A stretch of DNA of 64,000 nt. Source: Paenibacillus ferrarius. Its GTDB lineage: Bacteria > Bacillota > Bacilli > Paenibacillales > NBRC-103111. Each line of letters opens with the position of its first letter. Position 1 is the first letter of the stretch. The translations under genes and the position numbers were made by a program. The stretch is taken from assembly GCF_002027705.1 (NCBI RefSeq), contig NZ_MBTG01000001.1:186001-250000 (forward strand), read 5' to 3'. The notes under the pieces were generated by a model. The model did not search any database. It was given only the letters and a program-made list of their open reading frames with translations, and was not told the DNA's origin. Shown here piece by piece: positions 118-16,425 of the stretch.

Positions 118-146
118 AAGATGCATTTTTGTGGGGAGGAATTACT

Positions 147-293
147 TTGGAATATGATAGATACGAAGTAGACAGGGAACTAACAAAAGAAAACTACTCT
201 ATTTTTGATACAAGCGAAGAGCGTTATATTGCTGAGAATCTAAAGAAGTTAGATGCTGAGTTGATTGCATTAGCATTAAACAAAAGCAATTGA
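147..293 (+). CDS. Small acidic element protein, 48 aa
   Basis: This short frame starts at a TTG with a strong Shine-Dalgarno (GGGGAGGA at 133-140, six bases before the start) and ends at TGA 291-293. The product is 48 residues, rich in Glu, Asp, Lys and Leu, and probably helical, with no cysteine or membrane segment. The family is not recognised. The good ribosome binding site and its place in a row of small + strand genes are the only support, so the call is tentative. Confidence 0.45.
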   Translation: MEYDRYEVDRELTKENYSIFDTSEERYIAENLKKLDAELIALALNKSN

Positions 294-325
294 AAGGCGA
301 CATTTATTGGGAAGGAGTGTGTTGA

Positions 326-514
326 ATGGAAATTATTAAGTGGGTTATAACAATTTATATGATGATGGGTTTTGTAACATTAAGATTCTACCTAGTAGAC
401 TTTAGGGATTCGAAAATGGATATTAGCAAATTCACTGTTTGCTTAATTGCACTATTCTTATTTCCGCTATTCTGGTTCCTAAGAAAACTCATAGCAGCTA
501 ATTTTAAATTATAG
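326..514 (+). CDS. Small membrane protein, 62 aa
   Basis: The product has two hydrophobic stretches, roughly residues 5-24 and 36-52, separated by a short charged loop (residues 25-33), and a basic C-terminal tail. This fits a two-helix inner membrane hairpin. The start ATG follows GGAAGGAG with suitable spacing. No family is recognised. Small membrane proteins of this kind are common in the accessory regions of Bacillus phages, but nothing in the sequence shows the role. Confidence 0.55.
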   Translation: MEIIKWVITIYMMMGFVTLRFYLVDFRDSKMDISKFTVCLIALFLFPLFWFLRKLIAANFKL

Positions 515-557
515 CAACACAATAAATGCTCCATTTTATCAAAAAGGAAGTGCTTAG

Positions 558-764
558 GTGGCATTTAGAACAGAAGAAATAATAACCTATAAGAGTATTG
601 TTATATGTGATGATTGCAAGAAAGAGACTGAATTATGTGAATCCGCATATCCTATTGGTTTTGATAATCGAATGAACAGAGCATTGGCAGCAGGCTATAC
701 ATTTAAAGATACAGGTAAACAGTTTAAGAATTACTGTAAGGACTGTCGGACGACACGTGAATGA
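558..764 (+). CDS. Zinc-ribbon protein of the element, 68 aa
   Basis: The frame starts at GTG with AGGAAG seven bases upstream. The product contains two CxxC pairs, Cys-Asp-Asp-Cys near residue 17 and Cys-Lys-Asp-Cys near residue 60, about 40 residues apart. Together they can form one zinc-binding ribbon. The segment between them is short and charged. The function is unknown. It is one of several small Cys-pair proteins in this element; a nucleic-acid or protein-binding role is only a guess. It converges with the minus-strand gene that ends at 786. Confidence 0.6.
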   Translation: MAFRTEEIITYKSIVICDDCKKETELCESAYPIGFDNRMNRALAAGYTFKDTGKQFKNYCKDCRTTRE

Positions 765-785
765 ATAAGAAATAATACATTAATT

Positions 786-1373
786 TCATCGGGAATTATT
801 CCAGACATTCCTGTCTTTAAAATCGCCAGCAACATAAAAGTTTCCAAACGTGTCCTGTGTTAAGTGTCCAATTGGATTTGCAGGGGAAACTGGTAGCTCA
901 TGTTGGCATCTATGACACCATGTCCTTATAGAACCTTCATAAACCCAATGGTTGCCTTTATTCCAACATGCATGGCATTTATAATGTAGTCTGTATAATT
1001 TTGTACCATCATCTCTAATTTTGATCCCAGTTCTTACGAAGTCAGGCTGATCATCAACTGTTTTATATGTATTCTCTAATTCAATCTTATCTTCAGTTAA
1101 ACCTTGTATTAACTGTTCTCTAATTTCATTTTTATCTATATCTGTTTTATGGATTACCTCGTGCTCAATTGGTTGCACATCATTAAAAAATGAACTATAT
1201 GCATCACCAATTTTAGAGTATGTATCAACCATTTCAAATACATCTGAGTCTATCCCAAATAGTCTGAACACTTTATCTATAATAACCAATTTACTTAAAT
1301 TATCTGCTTCAGATATTTCAATCTCTGCTTTCTTACCTTTACCATCATCAATTGAGATTTTGACATTTAGCAC
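786..1373 (-). CDS. Uncharacterised element protein with C-terminal zinc ribbon, 195 aa
   Basis: The first 110 residues are acidic and begin with a beta-strand pattern. The last third carries Cys-His-Ala-Cys followed about 20 residues later by Cys-His-Arg-Cys. These lie in an aromatic context (His-Trp-Val-Tyr, Arg-Thr-Trp-Cys) typical of a zinc ribbon. No family name can be given. It is read opposite to the small genes on its left, and its stop lies 21 bases from theirs. It forms a leftward group with the secreted peptide and the YjfB-like gene further right, each with its own ribosome binding site. Confidence 0.6.
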   Translation of the reverse strand: MLNVKISIDDGKGKKAEIEISEADNLSKLVIIDKVFRLFGIDSDVFEMVDTYSKIGDAYSSFFNDVQPIEHEVIHKTDIDKNEIREQLIQGLTEDKIELENTYKTVDDQPDFVRTGIKIRDDGTKLYRLHYKCHACWNKGNHWVYEGSIRTWCHRCQHELPVSPANPIGHLTQDTFGNFYVAGDFKDRNVWNNSR

Positions 1374-1474
1374 CGCGACACCATCCTTTGATAAATAATC
1401 ATATCGAAAAATGTATCAATTATCAATCGGGAGTTAAATAAAAAACCACTGCAAAGGATGCAGCGGCTTATGTA

Positions 1475-1696
1475 TTAGCTTGCTTTTTTAGTGCCTTTTT
1501 TACCAGTTTCGGGGTTTACGTTCCCTTTAGTGCTCCAGTTGTTCTTTTTGGTTGAATCTTTATCAGTACGATTGTGTGGAGCAACATGTGTACCATTTTT
1601 CTTAGTGTAGCCTTTTACAGATGTTTTTGCGAATGCAGAAGTCCCAAAACTTAATACGAGTGCCATTGTTAGTAATGTAATAACGAGTTTTTTCAA
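1475..1696 (-). CDS. Small secreted basic protein, 73 aa
   Basis: The TTG start at 1696 is chosen because AAGGAGGA sits just upstream on the minus strand and the protein then begins with a classical signal peptide: two lysines, a hydrophobic core and Ala-Phe-Ala at about residues 20-22. The mature part is only ~51 residues, rich in Lys, Thr, Asn and Gly. It carries motifs such as Gly-Tyr-Thr-Lys-Lys-Asn-Gly-Thr and Asn-Val-Asn-Pro-Glu-Thr-Gly-Lys. Similar short secreted proteins of unknown function occur in Bacilli and their phages. The upstream ATG at 1759 would place the signal peptide internally and is rejected. The role may be at the cell wall; this is inference. Confidence 0.65.
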   Translation of the reverse strand: MKKLVITLLTMALVLSFGTSAFAKTSVKGYTKKNGTHVAPHNRTDKDSTKKNNWSTKGNVNPETGKKGTKKAS

Positions 1697-1845
1697 AGTA
1701 TTTCCTCCTTCCAAATTTAATAGGAACATTTTACCATTATTATAGGTAATTTGTCTCATAAAAGTTTGTGAAGGATTAAATGAAATTTGAATTTTATTAG
1801 GACAGGGGGTGAAGGAGAAAGAAAATTCTCTTCTTCATAATAATA

Positions 1846-2022
1846 CTAGCCACTAATATCAAGATTTCCGCCTAAATGTGGTTGCACACTCTGTGCCATC
1901 ATTTGAATCATTTGTTGAGCTTGCTCTGTAGACTGATCCTTAGCCATTTTAAGAACACTTATTCCAACAGCTTGACTTAAATTGTTCTGAGCTAAGGACA
2001 TTGAATTAGCAGGGATGTCCAT
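1846..2022 (-). CDS. YjfB-family small protein, 58 aa
   Basis: This short minus-strand gene has a good ribosome binding site (AAGGAGAA, six bases before ATG at 2022). The product shows the YjfB pattern: an N-terminal Met-Asp-Ile start, a Gln-Ala-Val-Gly-Ile-Ser-Val-Leu-Lys core, a helical Gln/Met-rich middle and a C-terminal His-Leu-Gly-Gly-Asn-Leu-Asp-Ile end. In Bacilli the family is often annotated as a putative motility protein, but its biochemical role is not established. Finding it inside the integrated element rather than a chromosomal motility locus is notable. Assignment is by motif memory only. Confidence 0.65.
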   Translation of the reverse strand: MDIPANSMSLAQNNLSQAVGISVLKMAKDQSTEQAQQMIQMMAQSVQPHLGGNLDISG

Positions 2023-2156
2023 GAAACTTCTCCTTTATGAATGAATTATCTAACAAATTATTTATCGGAAAAAGCTAATAAAATTCTTAGCTTTCATTTT
2101 AAAGTATGGATGACACAGTAAAATTTTAGTTTTAATGGAAAAGGAGCGAATGCAAT

Positions 2157-2527
2157 ATGAGTTTTAAAGAAGGTCAATGGATGTTTAATTATACTAATGG
2201 AGATGTTTGGTATGGAGAGTATCATGATACAAAAGAGAAAGCGATTGAAGCTGCGAAGTCAGATGAAATTACGTAGGTCAAATTCAGAGTGCAAAGAATA
2301 ACTTATATGTATCTGCTGAAAGAATCCTCGAAGATGTTGCAGAGGGGGTTTGTGAAGATGTTGGTGTTGTTGCTGAGGAATATTTAAGACATGTAAAGCA
2401 AGAACATGTGGGTATTTTAGAAAATCGTATTCGCGAAGTTATTGAAGTTTGGATGAAAGAATTTGATCATGAACCATCATTTTTTAAAGTAGTAAATATT
2501 GAAAAACTGCTAGTCAATGAAAACTAG
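2157..2527 (+). pseudogene. Frameshifted element gene, ~120 codons
   Basis: An ATG at 2157, preceded by AAGGAG, opens a frame for 39 residues that stops at TAG 2274-2276. Coding then appears to continue in another frame from about 2273 (Val-Gly-Gln-Ile-Gln...) through an acidic helical segment to TAG 2525-2527. Neither half has a ribosome binding site at the junction, and the second half has no good start of its own. The pair therefore looks like one gene broken by a small indel. The alternatives are a sequencing error or, less likely, programmed frameshifting; no slippery heptamer was seen. No family is recognised. Confidence 0.55.
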
Positions 2528-2550
2528 ATTTTATAGGAACCTAAGAAAAT

Positions 2551-2575
2551 AAAAAAGAGTCTATAATTAGACTCT
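2551..2575 (-). terminator. Rho-independent terminator overlapping a stop codon
   Basis: Arms AGAGTCT (2556-2562) and AGACTCT (2569-2575) form a 7-bp stem with a 6-base loop. On the minus strand the stem is followed by a run of T. The TAA stop of the gene at 2567-2980 lies in the loop and inner stem, so coding sequence and terminator share bases. Confidence 0.75.
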
Positions 2576-2980
2576 CGACATTTTCTTGAAGTTGACTATA
2601 TCTTTTATTGTTGGATCTGTTAAGTGGATTATCAGACCACCATGCTCTTTCACAATTGAGTAGATATCTCCCATTTCTAAATTTTCTTTTGTTGGTGGAT
2701 TGCTATACGATAATACGAGTGGCTGTTTATCAATTAGAATTTGAATTACTTGTGGGTTCAATTCAAAACCTAATACTAAGTCAAACTTGGTAATAAGTTG
2801 GGCACCATCTCTGATTTTAAATTTTAATTCTATTGCTTTCTGGCTACCGTAGTAATTGACGATGCAATCGAAGTCATATTGAGTATTAGCGTCGAGATTT
2901 CTTAATTCTTCGATTCCCCAGACCATCACATGTTTTTCATTATTCTCTAAAGTTTCATTTGCTTGTATTCTTCTTGGCAT
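2567..2980 (-). CDS. Uncharacterised element protein, 137 aa
   Basis: This is a soluble, mixed-charge protein with alternating hydrophobic residues and no cysteine, signal peptide or membrane helix. The start ATG at 2980 follows a GGAGGAACAAATGCC-like context on the minus strand, which places a good ribosome binding site close by. The family is not recognised. It has its own terminator overlapping the stop codon, so it is probably a single-gene transcript, divergent from the nucleotidyltransferase gene to the right. Confidence 0.55.
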   Translation of the reverse strand: MPRRIQANETLENNEKHVMVWGIEELRNLDANTQYDFDCIVNYYGSQKAIELKFKIRDGAQLITKFDLVLGFELNPQVIQILIDKQPLVLSYSNPPTKENLEMGDIYSIVKEHGGLIIHLTDPTIKDIVNFKKMSRV

Positions 2981-3111
2981 TTGTTCCTCCGTTAGTAGAA
3001 AGTGGTAGTTATCAATATCAATTATAGCCTGAATTTGTAAATTTGTGTATTATATTTCGAACTATAAAAGTATCAATCCATGGGGAATTAAAACAAATTA
3101 GGAGGTATTAA

Positions 3112-3717
3112 ATGAATAAATATAATTTTAAAGAGTTCTTATCTAGATTTATGAACGATGTTGATGATCACGAGTTGTTTGCGGTTCTAAAGGGGTTGCC
3201 CGATTTCATCACTAATGAGATGTGGTTAGCTGGTGGAGCAATAAGAAGAACATTAATTGGTTCCGAACTATCTTCAGATTTCGATCTATTCTTTAAAAAC
3301 GAAGCAATTCTAAAGCAATATGCCAAGAGTTTAGAAGGTAAAAAAGCTAAAAAGACAGCAGAAACTGAGCATCACATTACATATTGTCTAGATATCAAAG
3401 GGAATACAAGAATCATCCAGTTAATTAAGATTGGTTATTATGAAAGTCCAGAAGCAGTAATTGACACTTTTGATTTTACAATTGCTCAATTTGCTTATGA
3501 TGGAACAGATCTATTTTGTGGAAGATATTCGCTTTGGGATCTATCAAGGAAGCGCCTAGCACTTCATAAATTAACCTATGGAGTAGCGACAATGCGTAGG
3601 TTAATCAAATACACCAAACAAGACTTCACTGCGTGTGCAGGTGTCATGCAATCCATTTTAGAGGCCGTAGTTAATGATCCTAAAGTTGTGCAGTCAAATA
3701 TTCAATACATTGATTAA
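3112..3717 (+). CDS. Stand-alone nucleotidyltransferase (poly(A)-polymerase/CCA-enzyme head type), 201 aa
   Basis: Residues ~37-62 contain Gly-Gly-Ala-Ile-Arg-Arg followed by Ser-Asp-Phe-Asp-Leu-Phe-Phe. This is the Gly-Gly...Asp-x-Asp signature of the polymerase-beta-like superfamily, closest to the head domain of CCA-adding enzymes and poly(A) polymerases. A further acidic position (Asp-Thr-Phe-Asp-Phe-Thr near residue 122) fits the third metal ligand. At 201 residues it lacks most of the neck, body and tail of true CCA enzymes. It may therefore modify tRNA ends, another RNA or a protein; the substrate is unknown. The start ATG follows TAGGAGG. The gene's 3' end overlaps the convergent gene at 3714-3974 by four bases. 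Confidence 0.7.
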   Translation: MNKYNFKEFLSRFMNDVDDHELFAVLKGLPDFITNEMWLAGGAIRRTLIGSELSSDFDLFFKNEAILKQYAKSLEGKKAKKTAETEHHITYCLDIKGNTRIIQLIKIGYYESPEAVIDTFDFTIAQFAYDGTDLFCGRYSLWDLSRKRLALHKLTYGVATMRRLIKYTKQDFTACAGVMQSILEAVVNDPKVVQSNIQYID

Positions 3718-3974
3718 CCCTCATAAGGATTTAGAAATTTTGCGAAAAAGTAAGCTCTCTTTTTTCTGAGATACCATTCAATTTTATCTTCATAATCATA
3801 AAACTTTAGGCAAAATGTTTTATGATTCAGCGGTTCAAGCGAAATCAAATCACCATTGATTTTATCAAGAACAACTAAAGCTGTATATTTATCCTTGTTT
3901 TTATAAGTGTAAACAAGTTCTGCTGAAATCCATGTGTCATTATCAATAATATATGAATTAATATATAAACTCAT
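3714..3974 (-). CDS. Uncharacterised element protein, 86 aa
   Basis: A small protein rich in Tyr, Lys and Asp, with a beta-strand-like N-terminal half and a basic aromatic C-terminal segment (Tyr-Leu-Arg-Lys-Lys-Arg-Ala-Tyr-Phe-Phe). The start ATG at 3974 follows GAGGTGG on the minus strand at good spacing. No family is recognised. It converges on the nucleotidyltransferase with a 4-base overlap. It is divergent from the polymerase gene; the ~200-base gap between them contains AT-rich sequence with short inverted repeats (for example GGCT/AGCC at ~4080-4094) but no convincing promoter. Confidence 0.45.
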   Translation of the reverse strand: MSLYINSYIIDNDTWISAELVYTYKNKDKYTALVVLDKINGDLISLEPLNHKTFCLKFYDYEDKIEWYLRKKRAYFFAKFLNPYEG

Positions 3975-4173
3975 TGATCCACCTCAAGAATAATTTTAAC
4001 ACTAAGAAAAATATCAAGCAATTAATTGAGTTAATAGCAATGGTCAAAAAAAACGTATTAAAAAAACATTGATATATAAGGCTTTTTTTGAGCCGAAAAG
4101 GCAATGAAAGGTAAGTTTTATTAGAAATATACTTAATAAAATAAAAATAATAATTTAAGAAGGTGTAAACCTA

Positions 4174-7100
4174 TTGTGTTTTATTAACTGTCATAATCAC
4201 TCAGATTACTCGAATGTGAGATTATTGGATTGCACAAACTCAGTTGAGGATTTAATCCGCACTGCAGGAGAATTAGGCTATAAAGGCCTTGCTCTGACTG
4301 ACCATGAATCTGTCTCAGCTCATGTGCAAGCCATTAAGAAGACTAGAGAATTAAAAGAGAAAGGTAAAATCCCATTAGACTTTAAGTTGATTTTAGGAAA
4401 TGAATTGTATTTGGTTGATGATATTGAAGACACCAGAGAGAACTATAAATCAGGAGTCACAAAATTCCCTCATTTTTTAATTATGAGTAAAGATTCTATT
4501 GGTCATGAACAAATGCGTTATTTGAGCAGTCAGGCTTGGGATAATTCTTTCTATTCTGGAACAATGCTTCGTGTTCCTTCTGATAAAAAAACTGTGGAAA
4601 GGGTAGTAAAGGAAAATCCAAACCATTTAATAGCCACTACAGCATGTTTGGGATCAGAGGTTTGTATTCATTTACTAGCAATTGAACTTGCAGAAGCACA
4701 AAATGATCGAGAGAAAGTAAGATATCATAACGAAAAGTTACATGAATTTATTAACTGGTGTATTAATGTGTTTGGTCAAGATAACTTCTTTATTGAGTTA
4801 CAGCCAGCATATTCTTCTGAGCAAATCTATTGCAATACTGAATTACTAAAACTTGCTGAACAGTATAATCTCAAATATATCATTTCTACGGATACTCACT
4901 ATCTCCGTCCAGAAGACCGAGTTGTCCATAAGGCTTTTTTGAACGCAAAAGATGGTGATAGAGAGATTGATAGTTTTTACGAAGCTACATTTCTTCAAAC
5001 TCCAGAAGAAATTTATGAGCGAATGAACTACATTGATAAAAATATTGTTGATATTGCTTTCCAGAATACATTACTTATTGGACAGATGATCGATGATTAC
5101 ACTATTGAGCACGAAACAGTAATTCCTAAAATCAAACTACCTGAATTCCAACTTAGACATTTTTTCAAACGAGTGTATAACCAATATACATATATCAATA
5201 ACATGGCTCATGCCCCTGATGAGCAGGATAGATACATATTAAAACTGATTGAGGATGGCTTTAAAGAACATATTCCTTACAATGCAATTACCAAAGAAAG
5301 ACTTCACGAAATAACAACAAGAATCGATGTTGAGCTGGGTGAGCTTTGGGAGATTAGTCAGCAGCTTAAGCAAACAATGTCATCATACTACATAACTACA
5401 GCGAAGATTGTAGATATCATTTGGCAAGATGATGAATGTGGAGGTAATAGCTTAGTTGGTTCAGGTCGTGGATCATCTGGTGGATTCTTAATTTGCTTTC
5501 TACTGGGTATTACACAAATTAATCCACTTGAGTATGGAATTGAAATGCCTCATTGGAGACACTTACATAGAAGTCGTCCTGATATTAGTGCATTAGATAT
5601 TGATATTGATACTGAATCAAGTAAACGTCCAAGAATTGTTCAGGCATTGAAGAACTACTTTGGTGGAGATAAAGTTTTACAAGTATGTACTTTCGGTACT
5701 GAAGGGTCTAAATCAGCCATACAGACTGCTTGTAGGGGGTTGGGATTAGATTCAGATGTGGGTTTGTTCATTAGTAGCTTGATTCCATTTGAACGCGGAG
5801 AAAACTGGACTATTTCAGATTGTTTGTTTGGAAATGAGGAAAAAGAAAGAGAACCAATTACTGAGTTTATTAACGAAATTGGCAAACATGAAAACTTAAG
5901 GGAAACAGCATTAAAAATTGAAGGAAAGATTAATAAACGAAGTATCCATGCAGGTGGAGTTGTCGTTTTTAATGAGCCTTATTATAAGTCTAATGCAATG
6001 ATGAAAGCTCCAAATGGTTTACCTATTACTCAATTTAACCTTGATGATAGTCAAGCAGTAGGTAATATCAAAATGGATCTTCTGACTATCGAGGCTTTAG
6101 ACAAGATAAGAACGACACTCGATTTACTTCTAGAATACAAAGAAATCAAATGGCAAGGCTCACTAAGAAAAACATTTAATTCTTATCTTCATCCAAATGT
6201 AATTGAAAAAGAAGACTCCAGAATTTACGAAATGTTAGGTGAGGGTACAGTCCCAGATTTATTTCAATTTTCGACTGCAATTGGATATCAATCAGCAATC
6301 AAAGTAAAGCCTAGAAACCTACTAGAAACCGCGTCAGCAAATTCACTTATGCGACTTATGAGTGGCGATGGCGAACAACCAATTGATACATTCGTGAGAT
6401 TCAAAAACGACATTCAACAATGGTATGAAGAGATGAAATCATTTAATCTCTCTGAAGATGAGATAAAAATTATGGAAAGATACCTTCTTAAGTTGAATGG
6501 GGTAGCAGATACACAAGAATCAGTAATGCTTATGTCAATGGATACGAAAGTATCAGGGTTTGATGTTAAAGATGCAAATAAATTAAGAAAGGCTATCGCA
6601 AAACGATCAAAAAAAGATTTAGATGAAATTCAAAAAACTTTCTATGAAAAAGGCACATCGTTAGGAACTAGTAAGAATCTACTTGACTATGTGTGGATGC
6701 ATATCAAACGAATGTTAGGATATGCCTTTTCTATCTTACACACCTTAGCTTACTCAGTTATTGCACTACAAGAGTTAAATCTAAATTACAGATTCGATCC
6801 ACTATATTGGAATACTGCAGTACTATCTGTAAATGCAGCTAGTAATGATGATGGTTCTGATTTAGATGAAGATGAAGAAAAGAAAAATAAATCAACTAAC
6901 TATGGTAAGGTTGCAGCAGCCATTGGGATGATGCATTCTCATGGAATCAAAATTGGTCTTCCAGAAATAAATAAAGCACACTTTGGATTCAAACCTGACT
7001 TTACAGATAGACAAATCATTTTCGGATTAAAGGGTTTAGTTGGAATTGGAGATGATGCAGTTCAATCAATCATAACAAACAGACCTTATGATTCCTTTGA

Positions 7101-8115
7101 TGATTTTTACGAACGTATGCATTTGACTGGACTAATAAAAAAAACACAAATGGCACAATTGATTAAAGCTGGCTGTTTTGAATCATTTGGGGATCGGTTA
7201 ACCATTATGAAAATGTTTATTGAGAAACTATGTACACCAAAGACTAAATTAAATATGCAAAATTTTAATGCAATACTCGAAAACAAATTACTGCCAGATG
7301 AACATCAAAGTTATGCAAAACTATATAGTTTTAGAAAATATGTTATTAAAAAAGTTTATAAAACTGAAGGGAAAGAGAAGTATTATTTGTTAGATGAAAG
7401 ATCCGCGGCATACTTCTATGACCAATTCTCTAATGATTCAATCTCAGAGTTTATTAAGGGGATGCCAGTTATTTCAGAAAAGCAATTTAAAAAAGAGTGT
7501 GACAACATTATGGATGGAATTCGAGAATGGGTATCAAGTGAAGCTGCCTTAAATCTTTTCAATCAGAAAATGTTTGAAAATGAATGGAATGATAACGCGG
7601 AAGGGAATGTCAGCAAGTGGGAGATGGATTCTCTCTCGTTTTATTATACTAGTCATGAACTTTTGAATGTGAATAACGAAAAATATGGGATCGTAAATTT
7701 TAATAATTTACCTGAAGAGCCAATCGTTGTTGGACAATATTTGAATAAAAATGGAAGCAGACCAAAATATAAATTGGTATGTATTGCAGGAACTGTTTTA
7801 GATAAAGACAAGAATAAACACACAGTTACACTTCTTACTGTTGATGGAGTTGTAACAGTAAAGTACTATGATGGAGCATTTGCACACTATTATAGACAAG
7901 TTTCTCAACCTAAAGCAGATGGTACAAAAGAAATACTTGAGAAAAGCTGGTTTACTCGAGGAAACAAACTGGTTCTCTGTGGCTATCGCAGAGGATCACA
8001 ATTTAGACCATCCAGATATAAAGATACACCAGTGCAACACACAACGATGTTAATTAATGAAATTTGTGAAGATGGCTCTATTAGGGTTACATTAGATCGA
8101 ATGAAAGCGAAATAA
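4174..8115 (+). CDS. DNA polymerase III alpha subunit, DnaE-type, element-encoded (YorL-like)
   Basis: This 1313-residue C-family polymerase probably replicates the element's own DNA. The N-terminal PHP domain has His-Asn-His at residues 7-9, Leu-Thr-Asp-His-Glu and Ser-Thr-Asp-Thr-His-Tyr metal-site motifs. The polymerase core shows the Gly-Ser-Gly-Arg-Gly-Ser-Ser-Gly motif (~430-437), the acidic cluster Asp475-Ile-Asp477-Ile-Asp479, and Lys-Met-Asp635, the expected third aspartate. A helix-hairpin-helix segment follows near residue 950, and the C-terminal part looks like an OB fold. All expected catalytic residues are present. Length and layout resemble the SPbeta prophage protein YorL. Translation starts at TTG 4174 behind AAGAAGGTG. 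The host replicase PolC begins at the other end of this window. Confidence 0.9.
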   Translation: MCFINCHNHSDYSNVRLLDCTNSVEDLIRTAGELGYKGLALTDHESVSAHVQAIKKTRELKEKGKIPLDFKLILGNELYLVDDIEDTRENYKSGVTKFPHFLIMSKDSIGHEQMRYLSSQAWDNSFYSGTMLRVPSDKKTVERVVKENPNHLIATTACLGSEVCIHLLAIELAEAQNDREKVRYHNEKLHEFINWCINVFGQDNFFIELQPAYSSEQIYCNTELLKLAEQYNLKYIISTDTHYLRPEDRVVHKAFLNAKDGDREIDSFYEATFLQTPEEIYERMNYIDKNIVDIAFQNTLLIGQMIDDYTIEHETVIPKIKLPEFQLRHFFKRVYNQYTYINNMAHAPDEQDRYILKLIEDGFKEHIPYNAITKERLHEITTRIDVELGELWEISQQLKQTMSSYYITTAKIVDIIWQDDECGGNSLVGSGRGSSGGFLICFLLGITQINPLEYGIEMPHWRHLHRSRPDISALDIDIDTESSKRPRIVQALKNYFGGDKVLQVCTFGTEGSKSAIQTACRGLGLDSDVGLFISSLIPFERGENWTISDCLFGNEEKEREPITEFINEIGKHENLRETALKIEGKINKRSIHAGGVVVFNEPYYKSNAMMKAPNGLPITQFNLDDSQAVGNIKMDLLTIEALDKIRTTLDLLLEYKEIKWQGSLRKTFNSYLHPNVIEKEDSRIYEMLGEGTVPDLFQFSTAIGYQSAIKVKPRNLLETASANSLMRLMSGDGEQPIDTFVRFKNDIQQWYEEMKSFNLSEDEIKIMERYLLKLNGVADTQESVMLMSMDTKVSGFDVKDANKLRKAIAKRSKKDLDEIQKTFYEKGTSLGTSKNLLDYVWMHIKRMLGYAFSILHTLAYSVIALQELNLNYRFDPLYWNTAVLSVNAASNDDGSDLDEDEEKKNKSTNYGKVAAAIGMMHSHGIKIGLPEINKAHFGFKPDFTDRQIIFGLKGLVGIGDDAVQSIITNRPYDSFDDFYERMHLTGLIKKTQMAQLIKAGCFESFGDRLTIMKMFIEKLCTPKTKLNMQNFNAILENKLLPDEHQSYAKLYSFRKYVIKKVYKTEGKEKYYLLDERSAAYFYDQFSNDSISEFIKGMPVISEKQFKKECDNIMDGIREWVSSEAALNLFNQKMFENEWNDNAEGNVSKWEMDSLSFYYTSHELLNVNNEKYGIVNFNNLPEEPIVVGQYLNKNGSRPKYKLVCIAGTVLDKDKNKHTVTLLTVDGVVTVKYYDGAFAHYYRQVSQPKADGTKEILEKSWFTRGNKLVLCGYRRGSQFRPSRYKDTPVQHTTMLINEICEDGSIRVTLDRMKAK

Positions 8116-8132
8116 AGGAGAGTAAAAATAAA

Positions 8133-8378
8133 ATGAATAAGTATTTCATTGAGTTAGAAGTCGCTTCTAATTTATATCCTATCACTCTTAGCACTAATTC
8201 AATTTTTGAAACGCTGGCACAATTACATAGCAATTATAAGTTTGACAAAATCAATTACATAGCTGATAAACACCTAAAGTATAGCAAGGATAAGGCGGTT
8301 AATTCAGCAGCAACTCCACATATTAGTAACTTCTTAGGTAATAAGACTAGTAAAACATATGCTGGCATGGAGGTATAG
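8133..8378 (+). CDS. Uncharacterised small element protein, 81 aa
   Basis: It begins 17 bases after the polymerase stop, with AAAGGAGAG upstream of the ATG, so it is very likely co-transcribed with the polymerase. The product is a mixed-charge soluble protein rich in Asn, Ser and Lys without cysteines or membrane segments. No family is recognised. Its position suggests a link to replication, but that is inference from context only. Confidence 0.5.
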   Translation: MNKYFIELEVASNLYPITLSTNSIFETLAQLHSNYKFDKINYIADKHLKYSKDKAVNSAATPHISNFLGNKTSKTYAGMEV

Positions 8379-8380
8379 CA

Positions 8381-8566
8381 TTGGATCGATTTCATGATAG
8401 AAATGATGAGGAACCCAAATTATTTTCTAACTGCTGCTCATGCGATTCAGAAATTCGTATAGGAGATTCATATATAGAATATTATGGGTCTGTGAGCTGT
8501 GACGAGTATAGGTGTGTATTGAAAATGGTAGATGCTCAGAGAAGGGTTGCTGAAGACGATGTGTAA
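8381..8566 (+). CDS. Small Cys-rich element protein, 61 aa
   Basis: A TTG start at 8381 has GGAGG at 8369-8373 inside the end of the preceding gene, seven bases away. Translation is therefore probably coupled. The protein has Cys-Cys-x-Cys near residue 18 and two more cysteines around residues 40-45, a pattern able to bind zinc. Acidic residues dominate both ends. The family is not recognised. The next small gene overlaps its 3' end by eight bases. Confidence 0.5.
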   Translation: MDRFHDRNDEEPKLFSNCCSCDSEIRIGDSYIEYYGSVSCDEYRCVLKMVDAQRRVAEDDV

Positions 8567-8684
8567 GAATGAGTGTAAGTTAGTAGATGAGTTGACGAAG
8601 GAAGTTGAGGATTTGAAGAGTCAGGTAAGAGAATTAGAGAATCAGTTAATTGTGCAAAAAACTATGAGTGATAGTAAATGTTGA
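8559..8684 (+). CDS. Small coiled-coil peptide, 41 aa
   Basis: An ATG at 8559 overlaps the end of the preceding gene and opens a 41-residue frame ending at TGA 8682-8684. Leucines, isoleucine and valines recur at heptad spacing through residues 8-32 (Leu-Val-Asp-Glu-Leu-Thr-Lys-Glu-Val...), with charged residues between. This predicts one coiled-coil helix with cysteines at both ends. Such peptides occur in phage replication regions, but no function can be assigned. The ribosome binding site is weak, so translation would rely on coupling. Confidence 0.4.
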   Translation: MCKNECKLVDELTKEVEDLKSQVRELENQLIVQKTMSDSKC

Positions 8685-8724
8685 ATTCACTTGTAAAGTA
8701 AAAATAATAAATAGGAGTGATTTA

Positions 8725-9252
8725 TTGAGTCATTTATATGGTTTAGATTTATCTATGGAACAAACAGGGGTTACCATTTTTGATTTAAATGCTTTGCAGC
8801 CTATACATATCGGGTCAATCACAACTAATCAAAAACAATCACATGGCAAACGCTTATACATAATTGCAACAGAAATACTTTCACTAATAGAAAAGTATCC
8901 TCCATCCATTGTAACAATTGAACGTGGATTTAGTCGATTCAATACCTCGACCCAAGTTATATATAGAGTACACGGACTTATTAACTATCTACTTAGAGAC
9001 TATGAGCAAATTTACTATCCACCCAAGACAGTTAAAGAAGCGATTATCCGCGGTGACGCAAGTAAGAAATTAGTCAAGGATATGATCGAGAGAAAGTTTC
9101 CAGATGTGGTTTTTGAGAACGAAGATGAATCAGATTCATTTGCAGTAGCACTTACATATCTTATTAAAAATAAATACATAGCTTGGGACAAAGACGGAAT
9201 CAAGATCGCGAAAAAAGAAAGAGAAGGAAGCATAGGACAATCACGTAGATGA
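8725..9252 (+). CDS. RuvC-like Holliday junction resolvase, 175 aa
   Basis: The fold and active site match the RuvC family of four-way-junction endonucleases. Residue 8 is Asp in Gly-Leu-Asp-Leu-Ser...Thr-Gly, residue 66 is Glu in Thr-Ile-Glu-Arg-Gly-Phe, and the C-terminal cluster Glu-Asp-Glu-Ser-Asp-Ser-Phe-Ala-Val-Ala holds Asp134, Glu135 and Asp137. E. coli RuvC uses Asp7, Glu66, Asp138 and Asp141, so the spacing agrees well. The TTG start at 8725 is chosen because TAGGAGTGA lies just upstream and the catalytic strand then begins the protein. A start 57 bases earlier would add a tail without family support. It probably resolves branched replication or recombination intermediates of the element. 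Confidence 0.85.
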   Translation: MSHLYGLDLSMEQTGVTIFDLNALQPIHIGSITTNQKQSHGKRLYIIATEILSLIEKYPPSIVTIERGFSRFNTSTQVIYRVHGLINYLLRDYEQIYYPPKTVKEAIIRGDASKKLVKDMIERKFPDVVFENEDESDSFAVALTYLIKNKYIAWDKDGIKIAKKEREGSIGQSRR

Positions 9253-9282
9253 GTATTGTTTTAGAGTGGGGTGATTATATAA

Positions 9283-9603
9283 ATGATTGATAAATTTATA
9301 GAAACAATTTGTGAAATTCATAATATTAGTAGAGACAAGATGCCCAATAAAGCCATTCCATATTTATACAACATGAAAGATATTGCTCTATTGAAAGAGA
9401 TTCTATCTGATAATAGTGAAATGGACTACAGTATGCTATCTGAAATTTATAAATTTAACAAAGAAAATATATACAGAGTTATTTCAAAACACAATATTAT
9501 TAATATCGAAGATAGAGTAATGTCAAGTTTATATTTAACTTTTGAAAACAAGGCTTTTTTTGACAGGTGTTTTCAAAAATTCAGGCTGTGCAATCATGCA
9601 TAG
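9283..9603 (+). CDS. Uncharacterised element protein next to the recombinase, 106 aa
   Basis: A small protein with an Ile/Asn-rich helical composition and two internal Asn-Ile-containing repeats (Ser-Glu-Ile-Tyr-Lys-Phe-Asn-Lys-Glu-Asn-Ile-Tyr near residues 52-63 could be part of a helix-turn-helix). The start ATG follows a GGGGTGAT Shine-Dalgarno. The stop codon lies within the terminator stem that ends the transcript. No family is recognised. Small genes beside large serine recombinases sometimes encode the excision factor, but nothing here proves that role. Confidence 0.5.
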   Translation: MIDKFIETICEIHNISRDKMPNKAIPYLYNMKDIALLKEILSDNSEMDYSMLSEIYKFNKENIYRVISKHNIINIEDRVMSSLYLTFENKAFFDRCFQKFRLCNHA

Positions 9604-9616
9604 CTTGTTTTGTTTT
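9585..9616 (+). terminator. Rho-independent terminator before the recombinase gene
   Basis: GCTGTGCA (9585-9592), loop ATCA and TGCATAGC (9597-9604) form an 8-bp stem with one G-T pair, followed by TTGTTTTGTTTT. The stop codon of the upstream gene (9601-9603) is in the right arm. It should end the polymerase-resolvase transcript. Confidence 0.7.
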
Positions 9617-9633
9617 AATACCTATTTTATAAT
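9605..9633 (+). promoter_or_regulatory. Sigma-A-type promoter for the recombinase
   Basis: TTGTTT at 9605-9610 and TATAAT at 9628-9633 are separated by 17 bases, close to consensus. The start codon lies 36 bases downstream. The -35 hexamer sits in the T-tract of the preceding terminator, so terminator and promoter are fused. This gives the recombinase its own transcription unit. Confidence 0.65.
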
Positions 9634-9669
9634 TGTATCAAATACTTATGTATGGGGTGGAGATAGCAT

Positions 9670-11361
9670 TTGAGAGCAGTATATTATGCCCGTGTGTCAA
9701 CTGATAGTGACGACCAAGTTAACTCACTTCATAATCAAATATCATTTTTTGCTGATTTTATAACAGAAAATAATTACTCAAAAGTTGATTGCGGCATATT
9801 AGCAAGAAAAAACAATGTATTTGAGTATTTGGAGGGTGGTTATGCTGATGAGGGTATCAGTGGTAAATCACTAAAAAAACGTGAAGCCTTTAAACAAATG
9901 ATAAAAGATGCTAAACAAAGAAAATTCGATATTATCATCACAAAGAGCGTAGCAAGGTTTGGACGCTCAGTAGAAGACACTTCGAAAACTGTGAAAGACC
10001 TTAAAGAGTTGGGAATTGGCGTATATTTTTTAGATTTAAAAGTTAATTCCTTGGATAACAGTAAAGAATTTATGATTAATCTATTTGCTTCATTAGCCCA
10101 AGAAGAATCGAACAACAAATCATATATCGTACAGTTTGGAATTAGAAAAGCTCAACAAATGGGTAAATTTACTGGACATGCTCCCTTTGGATATGATGTT
10201 ATAGATGGATATTTGCAAATCAATGAAAGCGAAAAAGTGATTGTAAAAAGAATATATGATCTATACTACAATCAGGCATTTGGGCATGGAAAGATTGCGC
10301 GGCTATTTAACAAGGAAAATATAAAAACAAAAAAAGGCGCACAATGGAGTCAAATTCAAATTTCACGAATTCTAGACAATCCAGTATATAAGGGATTGCA
10401 GATTCAACATATGACTCAAACGACTGATATCAATAGAGACATAAGAAAAGTAATACCAGAAGAAGAGTGGATTAAACATAATAAACCAGAACTTTTAATC
10501 ATAGAAAAAGACTTTTTTGATATGGTTCAAATAGAGAAGCAACGAAGACTAGAGGAATTTGGTCATATCTCATATATTAAAGATAAATATATAGATGAAG
10601 AGGGAAACATTAAAATCGTTCAAAAGAGGAGGATTGCAAGAGGCGAAAAGAGACATAGTAGCGCTCATATTTTTTCCAACCTTTTGTTCTGTCAAAATTG
10701 TGGTTCTGGAATGAAGAGGAAAAAAAGAAAAGCCTATGTTCGGAATGATGGGACAAGCAAAGATCTTGGTTACGAGTGGTCTTGTACAAGCAACGATATG
10801 TATGGAAAGGAGAAATGTGCATACAGAAATGCCTATATAGAGTTAGATTTAATCAATTTTGCGAGAGACGAAATAGTTAACTATCGAAACAGTTCGATTA
10901 TTTCAGACACTAACATCAATTTATATATTCAAAGGAATATGGATGCCAAAAATGATGAAGTAAGTATAGAAGATATTGAAGCAGAAATTGAGAAGATTAA
11001 TGCCAAAGTTGAATTAAATTTCGAACTCTTATCAGAAGGAACTATTAATAAGGATGAGTATAAAAAGAGAAATGAAAAACAGCAAAGCGCATTGAAGATT
11101 TTGGAGAGTAATTTGAATAAATTAAAGTACGTTGAAACTGAAGTTGATGAAATAAGATTGAGGTACAATAATTTCAAAAAAACATTAGAAAATTTCAATC
11201 AAGAAGAAATCACAAACGGAGCTTTAAGAAGAATATTGAAAAGGATTAACATTTTTACTGATATCAACAATAAGAAAATACCATCAATTGAATGGATATT
11301 CATGGATACTACAAAAGATGCCCTCATTAAGGATGTTATGCTTAGCGAGAAGCCAATGTGA
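9670..11361 (+). CDS. Large serine recombinase (integrase), 563 aa
   Basis: This enzyme should catalyse site-specific integration and excision of the element. The N-terminal resolvase domain starts with Ala-Arg-Val-Ser10-Thr-Asp, where Ser10 is the nucleophile. It also carries Lys-Ser-Val-Ala-Arg-Phe-Gly-Arg-Ser and the Glu-Glu-Ser region before helix E. A recombinase domain with Gly-x-Ala-Pro-Phe-Gly-Tyr follows (~170-175). A zinc ribbon comes next, with Cys341, Cys344, Cys372 and Cys383, and then a coiled-coil segment at about residues 425-515. Length and order fit the phiC31/Bxb1-type group; it is not a close match to SPbeta SprA as I recall it. The TTG start follows GGGTGGAG. Its last 20 bases overlap the 3' end of truncated comM on the other strand, which places it at the attachment site. 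Confidence 0.93.
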   Translation: MRAVYYARVSTDSDDQVNSLHNQISFFADFITENNYSKVDCGILARKNNVFEYLEGGYADEGISGKSLKKREAFKQMIKDAKQRKFDIIITKSVARFGRSVEDTSKTVKDLKELGIGVYFLDLKVNSLDNSKEFMINLFASLAQEESNNKSYIVQFGIRKAQQMGKFTGHAPFGYDVIDGYLQINESEKVIVKRIYDLYYNQAFGHGKIARLFNKENIKTKKGAQWSQIQISRILDNPVYKGLQIQHMTQTTDINRDIRKVIPEEEWIKHNKPELLIIEKDFFDMVQIEKQRRLEEFGHISYIKDKYIDEEGNIKIVQKRRIARGEKRHSSAHIFSNLLFCQNCGSGMKRKKRKAYVRNDGTSKDLGYEWSCTSNDMYGKEKCAYRNAYIELDLINFARDEIVNYRNSSIISDTNINLYIQRNMDAKNDEVSIEDIEAEIEKINAKVELNFELLSEGTINKDEYKKRNEKQQSALKILESNLNKLKYVETEVDEIRLRYNNFKKTLENFNQEEITNGALRRILKRINIFTDINNKKIPSIEWIFMDTTKDALIKDVMLSEKPM

Positions 11362-12253
11362 CTATATGTATAGACTCCCCTTTAATAACTTTCTCAGGCG
11401 AAATCGTATGATGAGGGGCTCGAAAGGGTCTTGTTCGTATAAGTGAGGAGCGATCAACAAGTTTGCCGGAGGCGCTATAGATTTTCGTAACCTCTAGAGC
11501 TTCTATATCTGACATAGGGGGGAGAATGGAGGGCATGCGTTTCACAAGCATCGTTTTTCCTGTTCCCGGGGGACCGATTAATAAGATGTTATGCATGCCT
11601 GCGGCAGCGATCATCATAGCACGCTTGACCTGGTGATGTCCGTTGACATCAGCGTAATCATCGACAAAATGTTGTATCTCTGTGGATTTTGTCGATAATT
11701 TATGATGTTTATTATTAATGTTATTAAATATATATAAATGTTCGGATTCCTTTGTCAAGCATTTGAAATCAGTGAGGTTGTTGATGGCGCACACCTCAAT
11801 ACCGGCAATAAGTGCAGCCTCCGCTGCATTGGCCTGTGGCACATAAACGCGTTTGATGCCTAGTCTTTTGGCGGCGTGGGCCATAGAAAGGACGCCTGGA
11901 ATAGGACGCAGTGAGCCATCCAAGGCTAGTTCACCGAGAAATAAAGTGTGCTGAAAGCAATCAAAGGGAATCTGACTGGTCGTTATGAGAATGGCTACCG
12001 CTATTGCCAAATCAAACGAGGAGCCTTCTTTGCGTAAATCGGCAGGTGCTAAATTTACGGTTATTCGGTCCATAGGGAAGCTGAAACCACCGTTTTTGAT
12101 AGAAGAACGAACTCGCTCGACAGATTCTCTCACTGCAGAATCAGGCAGTCCAACCAAGTTAATCTGAGGGAGCCCGCTTGATATATCGACTTCCACTTCA
12201 ATGATTTGTCCTTCAATCCCCTGGAGGCATGCGCTCATAACTTTGCCATACAT
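11342..12253 (-). pseudogene. comM: comM (yifB), N-terminal ~60% only, interrupted by the element
   Basis: ComM/YifB is an AAA+ Mg-chelatase-like protein; in Gram-negative bacteria ComM is a branch-migration helicase used in natural transformation. The visible protein starts at Met-Tyr-Gly-Lys-Val (ATG 12253, behind GAGGAAGGTG) and has the N-terminal ChlI-like domain. It keeps Walker A Gly-Pro-Pro-Gly-Thr-Gly-Lys-Thr at ~219-226. Family homology stops at His-His-Thr-Ile-Ser (residue ~285). An 18-residue tail encoded by the element follows, then a stop. Family members are about 500 residues, so Walker B, sensor motifs and the C-terminal domain are missing. The truncated product is almost certainly inactive unless the element excises. 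Confidence 0.9.
11390..11410. other. Probable attachment-site junction in comM
   Basis: Read on the minus strand, comM codes normally through Phe-Arg-Ala-Pro-His-His-Thr-Ile-Ser and then switches to unrelated residues. The crossover therefore lies near 11396-11401. Short arms CCCC (11377-11380) and GGGG (11415-11418) are symmetric about 11397.5, as expected for the imperfect dyad of a serine-integrase site, though four bases is weak support. The partner site is outside the window, so the shared core cannot be read. Confidence 0.55.
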
Positions 12254-13076: not shown

Positions 13077-14237
13077 ATGAATATCCATGAGTACCAAGGC
13101 AAAGAAGTCCTGAGACAGTACGGAGTCAGCGTTCCTAACGGAAAAGTTGCATTTACCGTTGACGAAGCTGTTGAAGCAGCGAAAGAACTCGGAACATCCG
13201 TCGTCGTTGTAAAGGCGCAAATTCATGCCGGAGGTCGCGGTAAAGCGGGCGGCGTTAAGGTAGCTAAAAGCCTCGATGAAGTTCGTACATATGCTAGCGA
13301 AATTCTGGGTAAAGTGCTTGTCACACACCAAACAGGTCCAGAAGGCAAAGAAGTTAAACGTCTTTTGATCGAAGAAGGCTGTGACATTAAAAAAGAATAT
13401 TATGTTGGTGTTGTTGTTGACCGTGCAACTGGCAGCGTAGTTTTGATGGCGTCTGAAGAGGGCGGTACGGAAATTGAAGAAGTAGCAGAACACTCTCCTG
13501 AGAAAATTTTCAAAGAAGTAGTGGATCCTGCAATTGGTCTTCAAGCTTTCCAAGCACGCAGACTGGCTTATTCCATTAACATTCCTAACGAGCTGGTTAA
13601 CAAAGCAGTTAAATTCATGCTCGCTCTTTATAAAGCATTCGTTGAGAAAGACGCTTCCATTGCCGAAATCAACCCATTGGTTGTGACTGGTTCTGGGGAT
13701 GTTATGGCTCTTGATGCCAAATTGAACTTTGATTCCAACGCTCTGTTCCGTCACAAAGATATCGTTGAGCTTCGTGATCTTGAAGAGGAAGATGCGAAAG
13801 AAATTCAAGCTTCCAAATATGACCTGAGCTACATCGCTTTGGATGGCAACATCGGTTGTATGGTTAACGGCGCTGGACTTGCTATGGCCACTATGGACAT
13901 CATCAAGCACTACGGCGGAGACCCGGCTAACTTCCTAGACGTAGGGGGCGGTGCTACGAAAGAGAAAGTTACGGAAGCTTTCAAAATCATTTTGTCCGAT
14001 GAGCAAGTTAAAGGGATTTTTGTTAACATTTTCGGCGGCATCATGCGTTGTGACGTTATTGCGGACGGCGTTGTTGCTGCTGCAAGAGAGCTTGGACTTT
14101 CCCGTCCGCTCGTTGTTCGACTTGAAGGAACTAACGTTGAGCTTGGCAAAAAGATTCTTAACGAATCCGGTCTGAACATTGTTGCAGCTGACTCCATGGC
14201 TGACGGCGCACAAAAAATCGTTGCACTTGTGAAATAA
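13077..14237 (+). CDS. sucC: Succinyl-CoA synthetase (ADP-forming) beta subunit
   Basis: The 386-residue product, usual length for the family, is the beta chain of the TCA-cycle enzyme that converts succinyl-CoA to succinate with formation of ATP. It begins Met-Asn-Ile-His-Glu-Tyr-Gln-Gly-Lys, the standard N-terminus. It has the ATP-grasp region with Gly-Gly-Arg-Gly-Lys-Ala-Gly-Gly (residues ~53-60) and a C-terminal CoA-ligase part with Asn-Ile-Phe-Gly-Gly-Ile-Met-Arg-Cys. The start ATG has AGGAGGATTTTAGGA upstream. It is followed by sucD after 48 bases, and the two form an operon that ends at the terminator after sucD. Confidence 0.97.
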
Positions 14238-14285
14238 TTAAACCCGTGCGGTTTTAAATAATATAGGGGATGTGAACAAAAGATC

Positions 14286-15218
14286 ATGAGTATTTTGGTC
14301 AATAAACATACAAAAGTCATTACTCAAGGGATTACCGGCGCTACGGGTTTGTTTCATACCAAAGGCGGTCTGGAATACGGCACACAAATGGTTGGTGGCG
14401 TAACTCCAGGTAAAGGCGGTACAAAAGTAGATATCACTTTGGAAAACGGTGAGCTTGTTCAGCTTCCGGTTTTCAACACAGTTATCGACGCGAAAAATGC
14501 AACTGGTGCTACGGCATCCGTTATCTACGTTCCACCAGCTTTCGCTGCAGAGTCCATCATCGAAGCTATTGAAGCTGAGCTTGATTTGGTTATCTGTATT
14601 ACGGAAGGTATTCCTGTTCTTGATATGGTTAACGTGAAACGTTACCTAGAAGGCAAGAAAACCGTTCTAATCGGACCTAACTGTCCGGGCGTTATCACAC
14701 CAGGCGAGTGTAAAATCGGGATTATGCCGGGCTACATTCATACACCAGGTCACGTAGGTGTTGTTTCCCGTTCCGGAACATTAACTTACGAAGCGGTTCA
14801 CCAATTGACAACTCGTGGTATTGGACAATCTTCTGCTGTTGGTATCGGTGGAGATCCAGTCAAAGGTTCCGAGTTTATCGATATCCTCAAACGTTTCAAC
14901 GATGACCCTGACACTTATGCGGTTATCATGATCGGTGAGATCGGTGGTACAGCAGAAGAAGAAGCGGCTGAGTGGGTTGCTGCCAACATGACGAAGCCGG
15001 TTGTTGGCTTTATCGGCGGTAAAACAGCGCCTCCAGGAAAACGTATGGGCCATGCCGGTGCGATTATTTCCGGTGGTAAAGGTACAGCTGCTGAGAAAGT
15101 GGCTACAATGGAAAGATGCGGTATCCGCGTCGCAGCGACACCTTCCGAAATGGGTTCAACGCTTGTTAGCGTGCTCGAAGAAAAAGGTATGCTGGATAAA
15201 GTAATCACAAAAAAATAG
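14286..15218 (+). CDS. sucD: Succinyl-CoA synthetase alpha subunit
   Basis: The 310-residue alpha chain binds CoA and carries the phospho-histidine. The N-terminal Rossmann domain has Gly-Ile-Thr-Gly-Ala-Thr-Gly near residue 16. The C-terminal part has Gly-Pro-Asn-Cys-Pro-Gly and Gly-His-Ala-Gly-Ala-Ile (near 254-259), where the histidine is the phosphorylated residue. It pairs with SucC to form the heterodimer or heterotetramer. The gene is second in the sucCD operon and ends just before a strong terminator. Confidence 0.97.
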
Positions 15219-15280: not shown

Positions 15281-15333
15281 TGTTTTTCTAGATTTGCAAG
15301 CATTTGTCATTCGAGCGGGGAGTGTATATACTT

Positions 15334-16425
15334 ATGGATAATCGATTGATTATATTCGGTCTTCATGAGCTGGAAGGAATAGGCTGGAAAACAATGCATC
15401 AACTAATCAGCCGCTTCCCTGAGCTTCATCATTTGTTTGATTTGTCGTCCGCAGAAATTGTCGCCAAGGGCATTCGTGCCTCTGTCGCAGAACAAATTGC
15501 CACGCGGTTTACTCCGGCTTTCATAGAGCAAAAGCTTCATATATATATGAAGCAATCCATTCAAATTCTGACGCTTCTGGACGACGAATATCCAGCCATT
15601 CTGAAAGAAACAGCACAACCGCCTTGGGTTCTTTATGTAAAAGGAAATTTGTCTTTGCTAAGTGGACGGCTTCTGGGTATGGTTGGGACACGCACCCCAA
15701 CTCTTTATGGCAAACGGATTGCCGAAGAGTGGGCGGCAGCCCTTTCCAGAGCAGGTTTCGGCGTTGTAAGTGGTCTCGCTCGAGGCATTGACAGTAAAGC
15801 TCATTTGGGTGCTCTACAGGGGAAAGCGAAGACGGTTGCCGTGCTTGGCTGCGCCATTAATCAGATTTATCCGCGTGAAAACGCCTTATTATACCGCAAC
15901 ATTGAACAAGATGGGGTCATTATTTCCGAGTATCCGATTGGCACTGGAATGAGGCCGGGGATGTTTCCGCAGCGCAATCGCATTATAGCCGGATTGTCGC
16001 TTGGTGTTACGGTCGTAGAGGCCGCAGAGGATAGCGGGTCTCTGATTACAGTTGAATTTGCCCTCGATGAGTCGCGTGATGTTTTCGCTGTTCCAGGTTC
16101 CATTGATTCCAGACAGAGCAGCGGAGTACACAGGCTGCTCAAGGACGGCGCCAAATTAGTAACACAGGTCGAAGAGATTTTGGACGACTACAAACACATC
16201 ATAAGTCCGGAGGATCGAGCGGCGATCGCTAAGCCATTTCCCGTGTTTACACTCACGGAGGAGGAAGGCGAAATCCTTCGAAAGTTGTCGAATGAACCAA
16301 TCTCGATTGATAGCTTATTAGAGCAGTGTCAATTTACGTTTGGACATTTGCATGCAGTTCTGTTATCTTTACTAATGAAAAAGGCGATTAAACAGCTTCC
16401 AGGTTCTACTTACATCTTAGCATAG
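15334..16425 (+). CDS. dprA: DNA-processing protein DprA (Smf)
   Basis: DprA loads RecA onto single-stranded DNA taken up during transformation. The 363-residue protein has an N-terminal helix-hairpin-helix-like part. A Rossmann-like core follows with Gly-Met-Val-Gly-Thr-Arg, Ser-Gly-Leu-Ala-Arg-Gly-Ile-Asp and Phe-Pro-Gln-Arg-Asn-Arg-Ile-Ile. The C-terminal winged helix spans about 295-363. The ATG at 15334 gives the usual N-terminus; GGGGAG lies 11 bases upstream, a little far. It stands as a separate unit after the sucCD terminator and leads into topA. Its intactness contrasts with the broken comM nearby, the other transformation-related gene. Confidence 0.95.

Follow-up and report, generated by a model that had tools for sequence, protein, structure and literature searches.

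The window analysed here comprises 64,000 nucleotides of Paenibacillus ferrarius (positions 186,001-250,000 of contig NZ_MBTG01000001.1, below C1, 501,930 bp; assembly GCF_002027705.1, 9.18 Mb in 73 contigs), and its left-hand part very probably contains one end of a distant SPβ relative, a temperate prophage some 163 kb long that integrated by means of its own large serine recombinase at an attB site within the gene comM, between the Walker A and Walker B motifs. The element as a whole is 163,263 bp long (C1:34145-197407); its right-hand end occupies window positions 1..11407, and the remainder lies to the left of the window. Coordinates without a prefix refer to the window. The P. ferrarius genome is denoted G000 and the relatives compared with it by other G numbers; they form a genus set of 30 genomes and a family set of 104 genomes from 22 genera (103 besides G000).

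Interruption and predicted restoration of comM

The 5' part of comM (11395..12253, minus strand) comprises codons 1-287, with the Lon-like ChlI domain and Walker A, and is interrupted at codons 283-287, which coincide with the attachment core at 11395-11407. An initial annotation of the sequence had placed the cut at about codon 285 and had a serine recombinase ending at the junction, and both statements hold, the integrase stop codon being 33 bases from the core. The gene proper begins at 12253, within a minus-strand open reading frame (ORF) at 11342-12340 that matches ChlI (PF13541) and positions 1-95 of the 207 of Mg_chelatase (PF01078). Because the truncated frame reads on into the element as far as 11342, the comM and integrase ORFs, which are convergent, overlap by 20 bp.

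A search of the assembly with PF01078 located the distal half of comM at C1:33419-34144 (minus strand), outside the window and 163 kb away on the same contig, leftwards, where the initial annotation had suggested looking. This half contains Mg_chelatase positions 81-203 and Mg_chelatase_C. Joining the flanks at the core in silico yields a single open frame of 554 codons, 523 of them from MYGK, in agreement with the earlier expectation that precise excision would restore the frame. The rebuilt 523-residue ComM was compared with 20 intact ComM proteins fetched from relatives and is 96.2% identical to that of G003, without gaps, and 77-87% identical to the other 19. The conserved ORFs past the C-terminal half correspond to those of a relative, encoding 215, 620, 105, and 125 amino acids (aa) in G000, and 215, 638, 105, and 125 aa in G009. 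As required of a gene under regulated gene integrity, comM is thus interrupted and, in silico, exactly restorable. Since the insertion parts Walker A in the N-terminal part from Walker B and the C-terminal domain, a lysogen would be expected to make no working ComM.

Attachment sites and integrase

The core, CAGGCGAAATCGT, is 13 bp long and occurs identically at attL (C1:34132-34144) and at attR (C1:197395-197407, window 11395..11407), providing the matching sequence that the initial annotation had proposed to seek. It is the longest word common to the 4.0 kb examined at one junction and the 5.5 kb examined at the other, the next-longest being an A/T-rich 12-bp word located elsewhere; it has only two occurrences in the 175 kb examined and stands in exact codon register in both comM halves. 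The chance expectation of a 13-bp match between two random 300-bp stretches is about 0.001. An attP site rebuilt from the inner sides of the junctions has perfect 16-bp inverted arms, ACTCCCCTTTAATAAC and GTTATTAAAGGGGAGT, spaced 16 bp apart, of which the right one lies at 11374..11389 and repeats the left one, at attL, perfectly in inverted orientation; arms of this length were obtained in 0 of 500 base shuffles, the longest shuffled arm being 11 bp. The predicted excised circle measures 163,263 bp. The element therefore has an identical short core at both ends, a recombinase beside one end and inverted attP arms, as expected of a large-serine-recombinase element.

The integrase gene (9670..11361, plus strand) encodes 563 aa with Resolvase (PF00239, 3.8e-27), Recombinase (PF07508, 1.4e-17), and Zn_ribbon_recom (PF13408, 4.1e-07) domains, a length and domain composition that identify it as a large serine recombinase. 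A large serine integrase integrates alone and excises when joined by a directionality factor. Directly 5' of the integrase and after the gene for a RuvC-like Holliday junction resolvase (8668..9252, plus strand; phrog_159) lies a 106-aa ORF (9283..9603, plus strand), which is a candidate directionality factor by position only, because this neighbourhood recalls that of sprB in SPBc2, where sprB lies at the margin of the prophage, next after yotM, a gene for a Holliday junction resolvase. BLAST found no similarity between the two resolvases or between the 106-aa product and SprB, and the product has no Pfam match; a weak match to the end of the G068 integrase (E 0.03, 33% over 73 aa) is not relied on.

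A 114-aa orphan ORF just inside attL (C1:34236-34580, plus strand), carrying a recombinase-type zinc ribbon (PF13408), was also considered as a directionality factor, and nothing supporting that role was found. It has matches in G000 and weakly in G001 among the 30 genus genomes, and weak matches in two Geobacillus virus E3 records. Excision as a circle would place it across attP, directly behind the integrase gene and in the same orientation. Nearby, at C1:34872-35777 (minus strand), an ORF for a GIY-YIG endonuclease carries a zinc ribbon of this recombinase type in its C-terminal part and shares 33% identity with the orphan over 87 residues.

Relationship of the element to SPβ

The G+C content, calculated in 10-kb steps, is 31-37% inside the element and 43% in the step consisting mostly of the left flank. 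Nineteen proteins of the element were scanned against PHROGs. Structural matches are a tape measure protein, a minor tail protein, a tail fibre and spike, and a terminase large subunit; those in DNA metabolism are exonuclease V, a primase-like protein, a DnaB-like helicase, a RecJ-like exonuclease, ribonucleotide reductase, DNA polymerase, a RuvC-like resolvase, and integrase. Several of the remainder fall in families without known function and one has no match.

The phage DNA polymerase III alpha (4174..8115, plus strand) has 57% identity over nearly its full length to YorL of SPBc2, and its 20 best-matching phage records are all SPβ-group Bacillus phages. A greedy list of 246 ORFs of at least 60 aa was compiled for the interior of the prophage; SPBc2 counterparts were found for 26 of these, with identities of 20-45% in 24 cases. 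The late block follows the SPBc2 order (yomF-G-H-I, yomM, yonF-G, yonJ-K-N) and yopQ and yopR are adjacent, with yopP 30 kb away from them; yorJ, yorK, and yorL are in order and spread over 30 kb. Both MrpR domains (PF22822 and PF22823) are found at C1:127623-128627. The core genes of SPβ-like phages listed in PMC10516654 are mrpR, yopQ, yopP, aimR, and yokI, and the first three of these five are matched here. Membership of the genus Spbetavirus, defined by high nucleotide and gene sharing, is not reached with this number of SPBc2 matches. Judged from its sequence, the element probably works like SPβ-like phages and broadly belongs to them, outside the genus Spbetavirus by gene sharing.

Two further observations concern the phage genes. 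An HTH (helix-turn-helix) and S24 peptidase repressor is encoded at C1:121367-122530 (plus strand), so that, with the MrpR relative, the phage perhaps has two repressor systems. In addition, a 286-aa ORF at C1:96520-97380 (plus strand), matching both GIY-YIG and tyrosine recombinase (Phage_integrase) in one frame, adjoins a 354-aa tyrosine-recombinase ORF similar to SPβ YopP.

A polymerase this close occurs in two of the 103 other family genomes, G050 and G071 (61-63% identity; in two pieces with stops in G071), both of which have a full-length comM match. Since these genomes carry the close polymerase and yet a full-length comM, the comM site, we infer, belongs to the integrase module and not to the SPβ backbone.

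Several points weigh against the reading of the element as an SPβ relative that chose comM through its own integrase. Kinship to SPβ is distant, because SPBc2 matches are so few and in part out of order, and none of the 246 ORFs matches aimR or yokI of SPBc2; BLAST of the same ORFs against SPBc2 likewise found no SprB homologue. The integrase has no close relative in the sets searched: its best match in the genus has 38% identity, all 403 matches among 50,697 phage records are below 60% identity, the single match in genome_contigs (Acidocella) has 26%, and viral_contigs gave none. A second host with the same integrase was accordingly not found in these sets. The junctions are those of the assembled sequence, and excision is predicted from it. 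The dN/dS values (nonsynonymous over synonymous divergence) against G003, 0.020/0.253 for the N-terminal and 0.013/0.239 for the C-terminal part, show low dN and ordinary dS in both halves and carry little weight because the age of the insertion is not fixed.

Other interruptions of comM in the genus and family

Whole or partial comM was found in all 104 family genomes. Within the genus, the match to the ATPase domain is uninterrupted in 25 of 30 genomes (in one of them at a contig end), which supplies the intact alleles in relatives that the initial annotation had suggested searching for, and split in three (G000, G019, and G021); in the two exceptions the frame is broken (G008) or the C half is absent (G009). 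In the table of the 103 other family genomes, the same cut without an element, which would have spoken against the initial annotation, was not seen: in G009 (C15) comM ends earlier, at residue ~210, with the C half lost and the usual neighbours further on, following an ORF that we take to encode an S66-like peptidase, and in G064 the cut is at the same site and spans two contigs.

Splits were counted where both comM halves lie on one contig with a large serine recombinase at most 2 kb from the junction. Eight of the 104 family genomes qualify, each with a recombinase less than 2 kb away, and the intervening elements measure 163 kb (G000), 40 kb (G019), 17 kb (G021), 42 kb (G068), 68 kb (G075), 44 kb (G087), 10 kb (G093), and 38 kb (G103); gene content was characterised for the G000 element only. 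In seven of the eight the recombinase ORF touches a comM part or lies at most 0.3 kb from it, the distance in G021 being 1.75 kb; the G093 recombinase is in two ORFs and may be broken. An open in-frame ComM join exists for all eight, openness being partly built in, since the highest-scoring join was taken from those that were open, had at least 2 common bases and exceeded 440 codons. Shared cores at these joins are 22 bp in G068, 13 bp in G000, 10 bp in G019, 8 bp in G075, and 7 bp in G087; those of G021, G093, and G103, at 2-3 bp, are not significant alone.

The insertions fall at three sites. Site A, just before Walker A (AGMHNILLIGPPG), is occupied in G019, G021, and G068; site B, the site of the present insertion, in G000 and probably in G064; and site C, at MNPCPCG, in G075, G087, G093, and G103. 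In the reference ComM, GPPGTGKT, which we take as Walker A, is at position 227, site B begins at 279, LFLDEL, presumed to be Walker B, is at 309, and site C begins at 355. Identity among the recombinases is 39-47% at site A and 64% between two of those at site C; the G093 and G103 enzymes share ~20-34% identity with any compared, and the G000 integrase shares 24-28% with all others. Because the recombinases at the three sites are dissimilar, several lineages seem, on the basis of these comparisons, to have reached comM independently.

Other genomes were kept apart from this count. G064 has an in-frame join at the same place as G000 (core TCAGCTG), across two contigs, with a 65-residue recombinase-like match ~4.5 kb from the junction. 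G047 (C1:428267-489953, with 60 kb between the halves) was rejected as a further split, as no ORF of at least 150 aa matches recombinases; its N part ends at site A and its C part begins near site B, with codons ~227-282 (~56) missing, and it looks like a remnant scarred by the loss or recombination of elements. Near-contiguous pieces without an element (G008, G031, G048, G052, and G078) and genes truncated or at contig ends (G009, G029, G036, and G065) were also left out; the remaining 85 of the 104 were read off the table, not one by one, as full-length or nearly so, a few with an internal stop (e.g., G073, G077, and G056). In G068, where comM itself is split, a second comM fragment is present on C37 (fetched piece L080, 2016-2252), covering residues 221-290 at 52% identity to the reference, beginning near site A and ending just past site B.

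Why comM is interrupted

Upon induction and in the presence of a directionality factor, the phage would leave the chromosome and comM would be rebuilt. As to why this gene is the target, the likeliest reason would be that its coding DNA is strongly conserved and the gene itself dispensable in most conditions; a possible bonus is that, without ComM, transformation with element-free DNA might less easily delete the element.

It is quite possible that comM is a safe landing site and nothing else, with recombinases evolved on its conserved codons and inactivation bringing no benefit. All three sites lie in conserved motifs, AGMHNILLIGPPG and APHHTIS.AG, both present with small changes in the 20 fetched intact ComM, and MNPCPCG. 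Moreover, the five genomes of the family in which comM lies in two or three near-contiguous pieces and no element is present are in keeping with dispensability, although some of these frame breaks may be sequencing errors. There are, however, many conserved dispensable genes, yet this one, on our reading, is the reported target of 12.4% of the predicted site-specific large serine recombinases (PMC10083194).

A conflict within the genome is a tentative explanation of nearly the same standing, in which the element gains from a broken comM, since ComM-promoted recombination across long heterologies would help transformation to delete the element, and no switch is needed. Such a conflict has been argued for comM of Acinetobacter (PMC11472951), competence genes are enriched among large serine recombinase targets (PMC10083194), and in the present family several dissimilar recombinases use three sites of one gene, all in the ATPase core. 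On the other side, PMC11612176 presents ComM as the helicase for transformation in Gram-negative bacteria and assigns this task to RadA in Firmicutes, and radA is present here; in addition, PMC10083194 found targets not to be enriched in or near anti-phage defence genes, so target choice is not simply a matter of host defence.

Regulated gene integrity, in which the prophage would leave under a host programme (competence, sporulation, or stress) and thereby switch ComM on, as with comK of Listeria or spsM and SPβ, is unlikely as the explanation. In its favour, excision would restore comM exactly in silico, as SPβ in spsM does during sporulation (PMC4191935, PMC8270828). The host has matches to comEC, radA, and dprA, from which a route of DNA uptake appears possible, and an open in-frame join was found in all eight same-contig splits with a nearby recombinase, the joins having been picked by an open-frame search. 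Open halves would nevertheless be equally expected if the insertions were recent, and permanent partial loss of comM does occur, both in G009 and in the G047 remnant. Nor was a host-controlled directionality factor identified; the insertion is reversible in structure, and a switch is suggested by analogy only.

A more far-reaching version is improbable, namely that in this Paenibacillus-like family ComM acts in transformation beside RadA, and that elements with dissimilar recombinases, one of them a giant SPβ-like phage, came by convergence to use three sites in the ATPase core, each exact to the codon, as a reversible lock, with long-heterology recombination off in the lysogen and on after regulated excision. 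That the prophage is decayed and immobile and comM merely a pseudogene is very unlikely: at 163 kb the element exceeds the 128-140 kb of the B. subtilis SPβ group (PMC8270828) and cargo may have accumulated, but the integrase, polymerase, helicase, terminase-like, tape-measure, and tail ORFs, the subset of phage genes looked at, are open, as are the two halves of comM, and the att arms and core match perfectly.

Neighbouring host genes

Between comM and dprA lie the host genes sucC and sucD (13077..15218, plus strand), named from their translations and not by family search, and a SucC-like ORF is also found near comM in G019. The gene dprA (15304..16425, plus strand) is intact, as the initial annotation had stated, with PF02481 and the DprA winged helix (PF17782). 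From the translations, the gene order is presumably sucC-sucD-dprA-topA.

Comparison with known systems

Prophage insertion in a competence gene is familiar from comK of Listeria, where excision-dependent activation has been shown; comK encodes a regulator and comM a recombination helicase. The present insertion shares with that system a phage in a competence gene, and excision-dependent activation would apply here by analogy only. The gene yifB was reportedly listed by Mageeney et al. in 2020 in Nucleic Acids Research (NAR) as a regulated-gene-integrity candidate, interrupted and restorable.

In the survey of Durrant 2022, a magnesium-chelatase gene, which on our reading of its annotation is very probably of the comM/yifB family, is the target of 12.4% of the predicted site-specific large serine recombinases (PMC10083194). 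The survey thus very probably concerns the same target gene family, with many distantly related recombinases, and differs in being a bulk analysis that, in the text available, is without named hosts, codons, or SPβ-like elements. The initial annotation had left it open whether such a case had been described: large serine recombinase insertions in this gene are already known in bulk, and the specific addition is an SPβ-like phage in comM, of which no published description was found among titles and abstract openings of the open-licence literature, supplements excluded. The available text of the P. larvae phage papers PMC11860570, PMC6070908, and PMC4168068 contains neither "chelatase" nor "yifB", that of PMC10516654 neither "Paenibacillus" nor "chelatase", and that of PMC8138268 none of yifB, comM, or chelatase.

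The initial annotation had also drawn a comparison with tyrosine-recombinase islands in comM of Gram-negative bacteria, which is inexact inasmuch as AbaR is described as Tn7-like (PMC11472951). AbaR and other elements frequently disrupt comM in Acinetobacter, where transformation is then reduced, so that mobile elements there also inactivate comM in the Mg-chelatase domain (PMC11472951), whereas the element described here is a phage with a serine-recombinase att site and a 13-bp core.

The closest parallels are SPβ in spsM of Bacillus subtilis and φ3T in kamA, likewise large SPβ-group prophages in a coding gene, with inverted repeats round a short core and restoration on excision (PMC4191935, PMC8270828); in SPβ, 16-bp inverted repeats accompany a 16-bp core (PMC4191935). 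The P. ferrarius element differs in its target, its size of 163 kb, an integrase with 23% identity to SprA, and the failure to find SprB, and its integrase lies beside the polymerase and Holliday-junction-resolvase genes, whereas sprA and sprB are at opposite margins in SPBc2. SPβ-related phages are reported to integrate frequently in spsM or kamA, and comM thus joins these two coding genes given as landing sites of the group in PMC8270828. ComM has been described as notably absent from Firmicutes (PMC11612176), to which its presence and repeated interruption in a Gram-positive family form an exception. The family supplies new integrase/att pairs and, with naturally paired species whose comM is intact or split, three distinct att sites, and several dissimilar recombinases, makes it possible to test outside Gram-negative bacteria why mobile elements choose comM.

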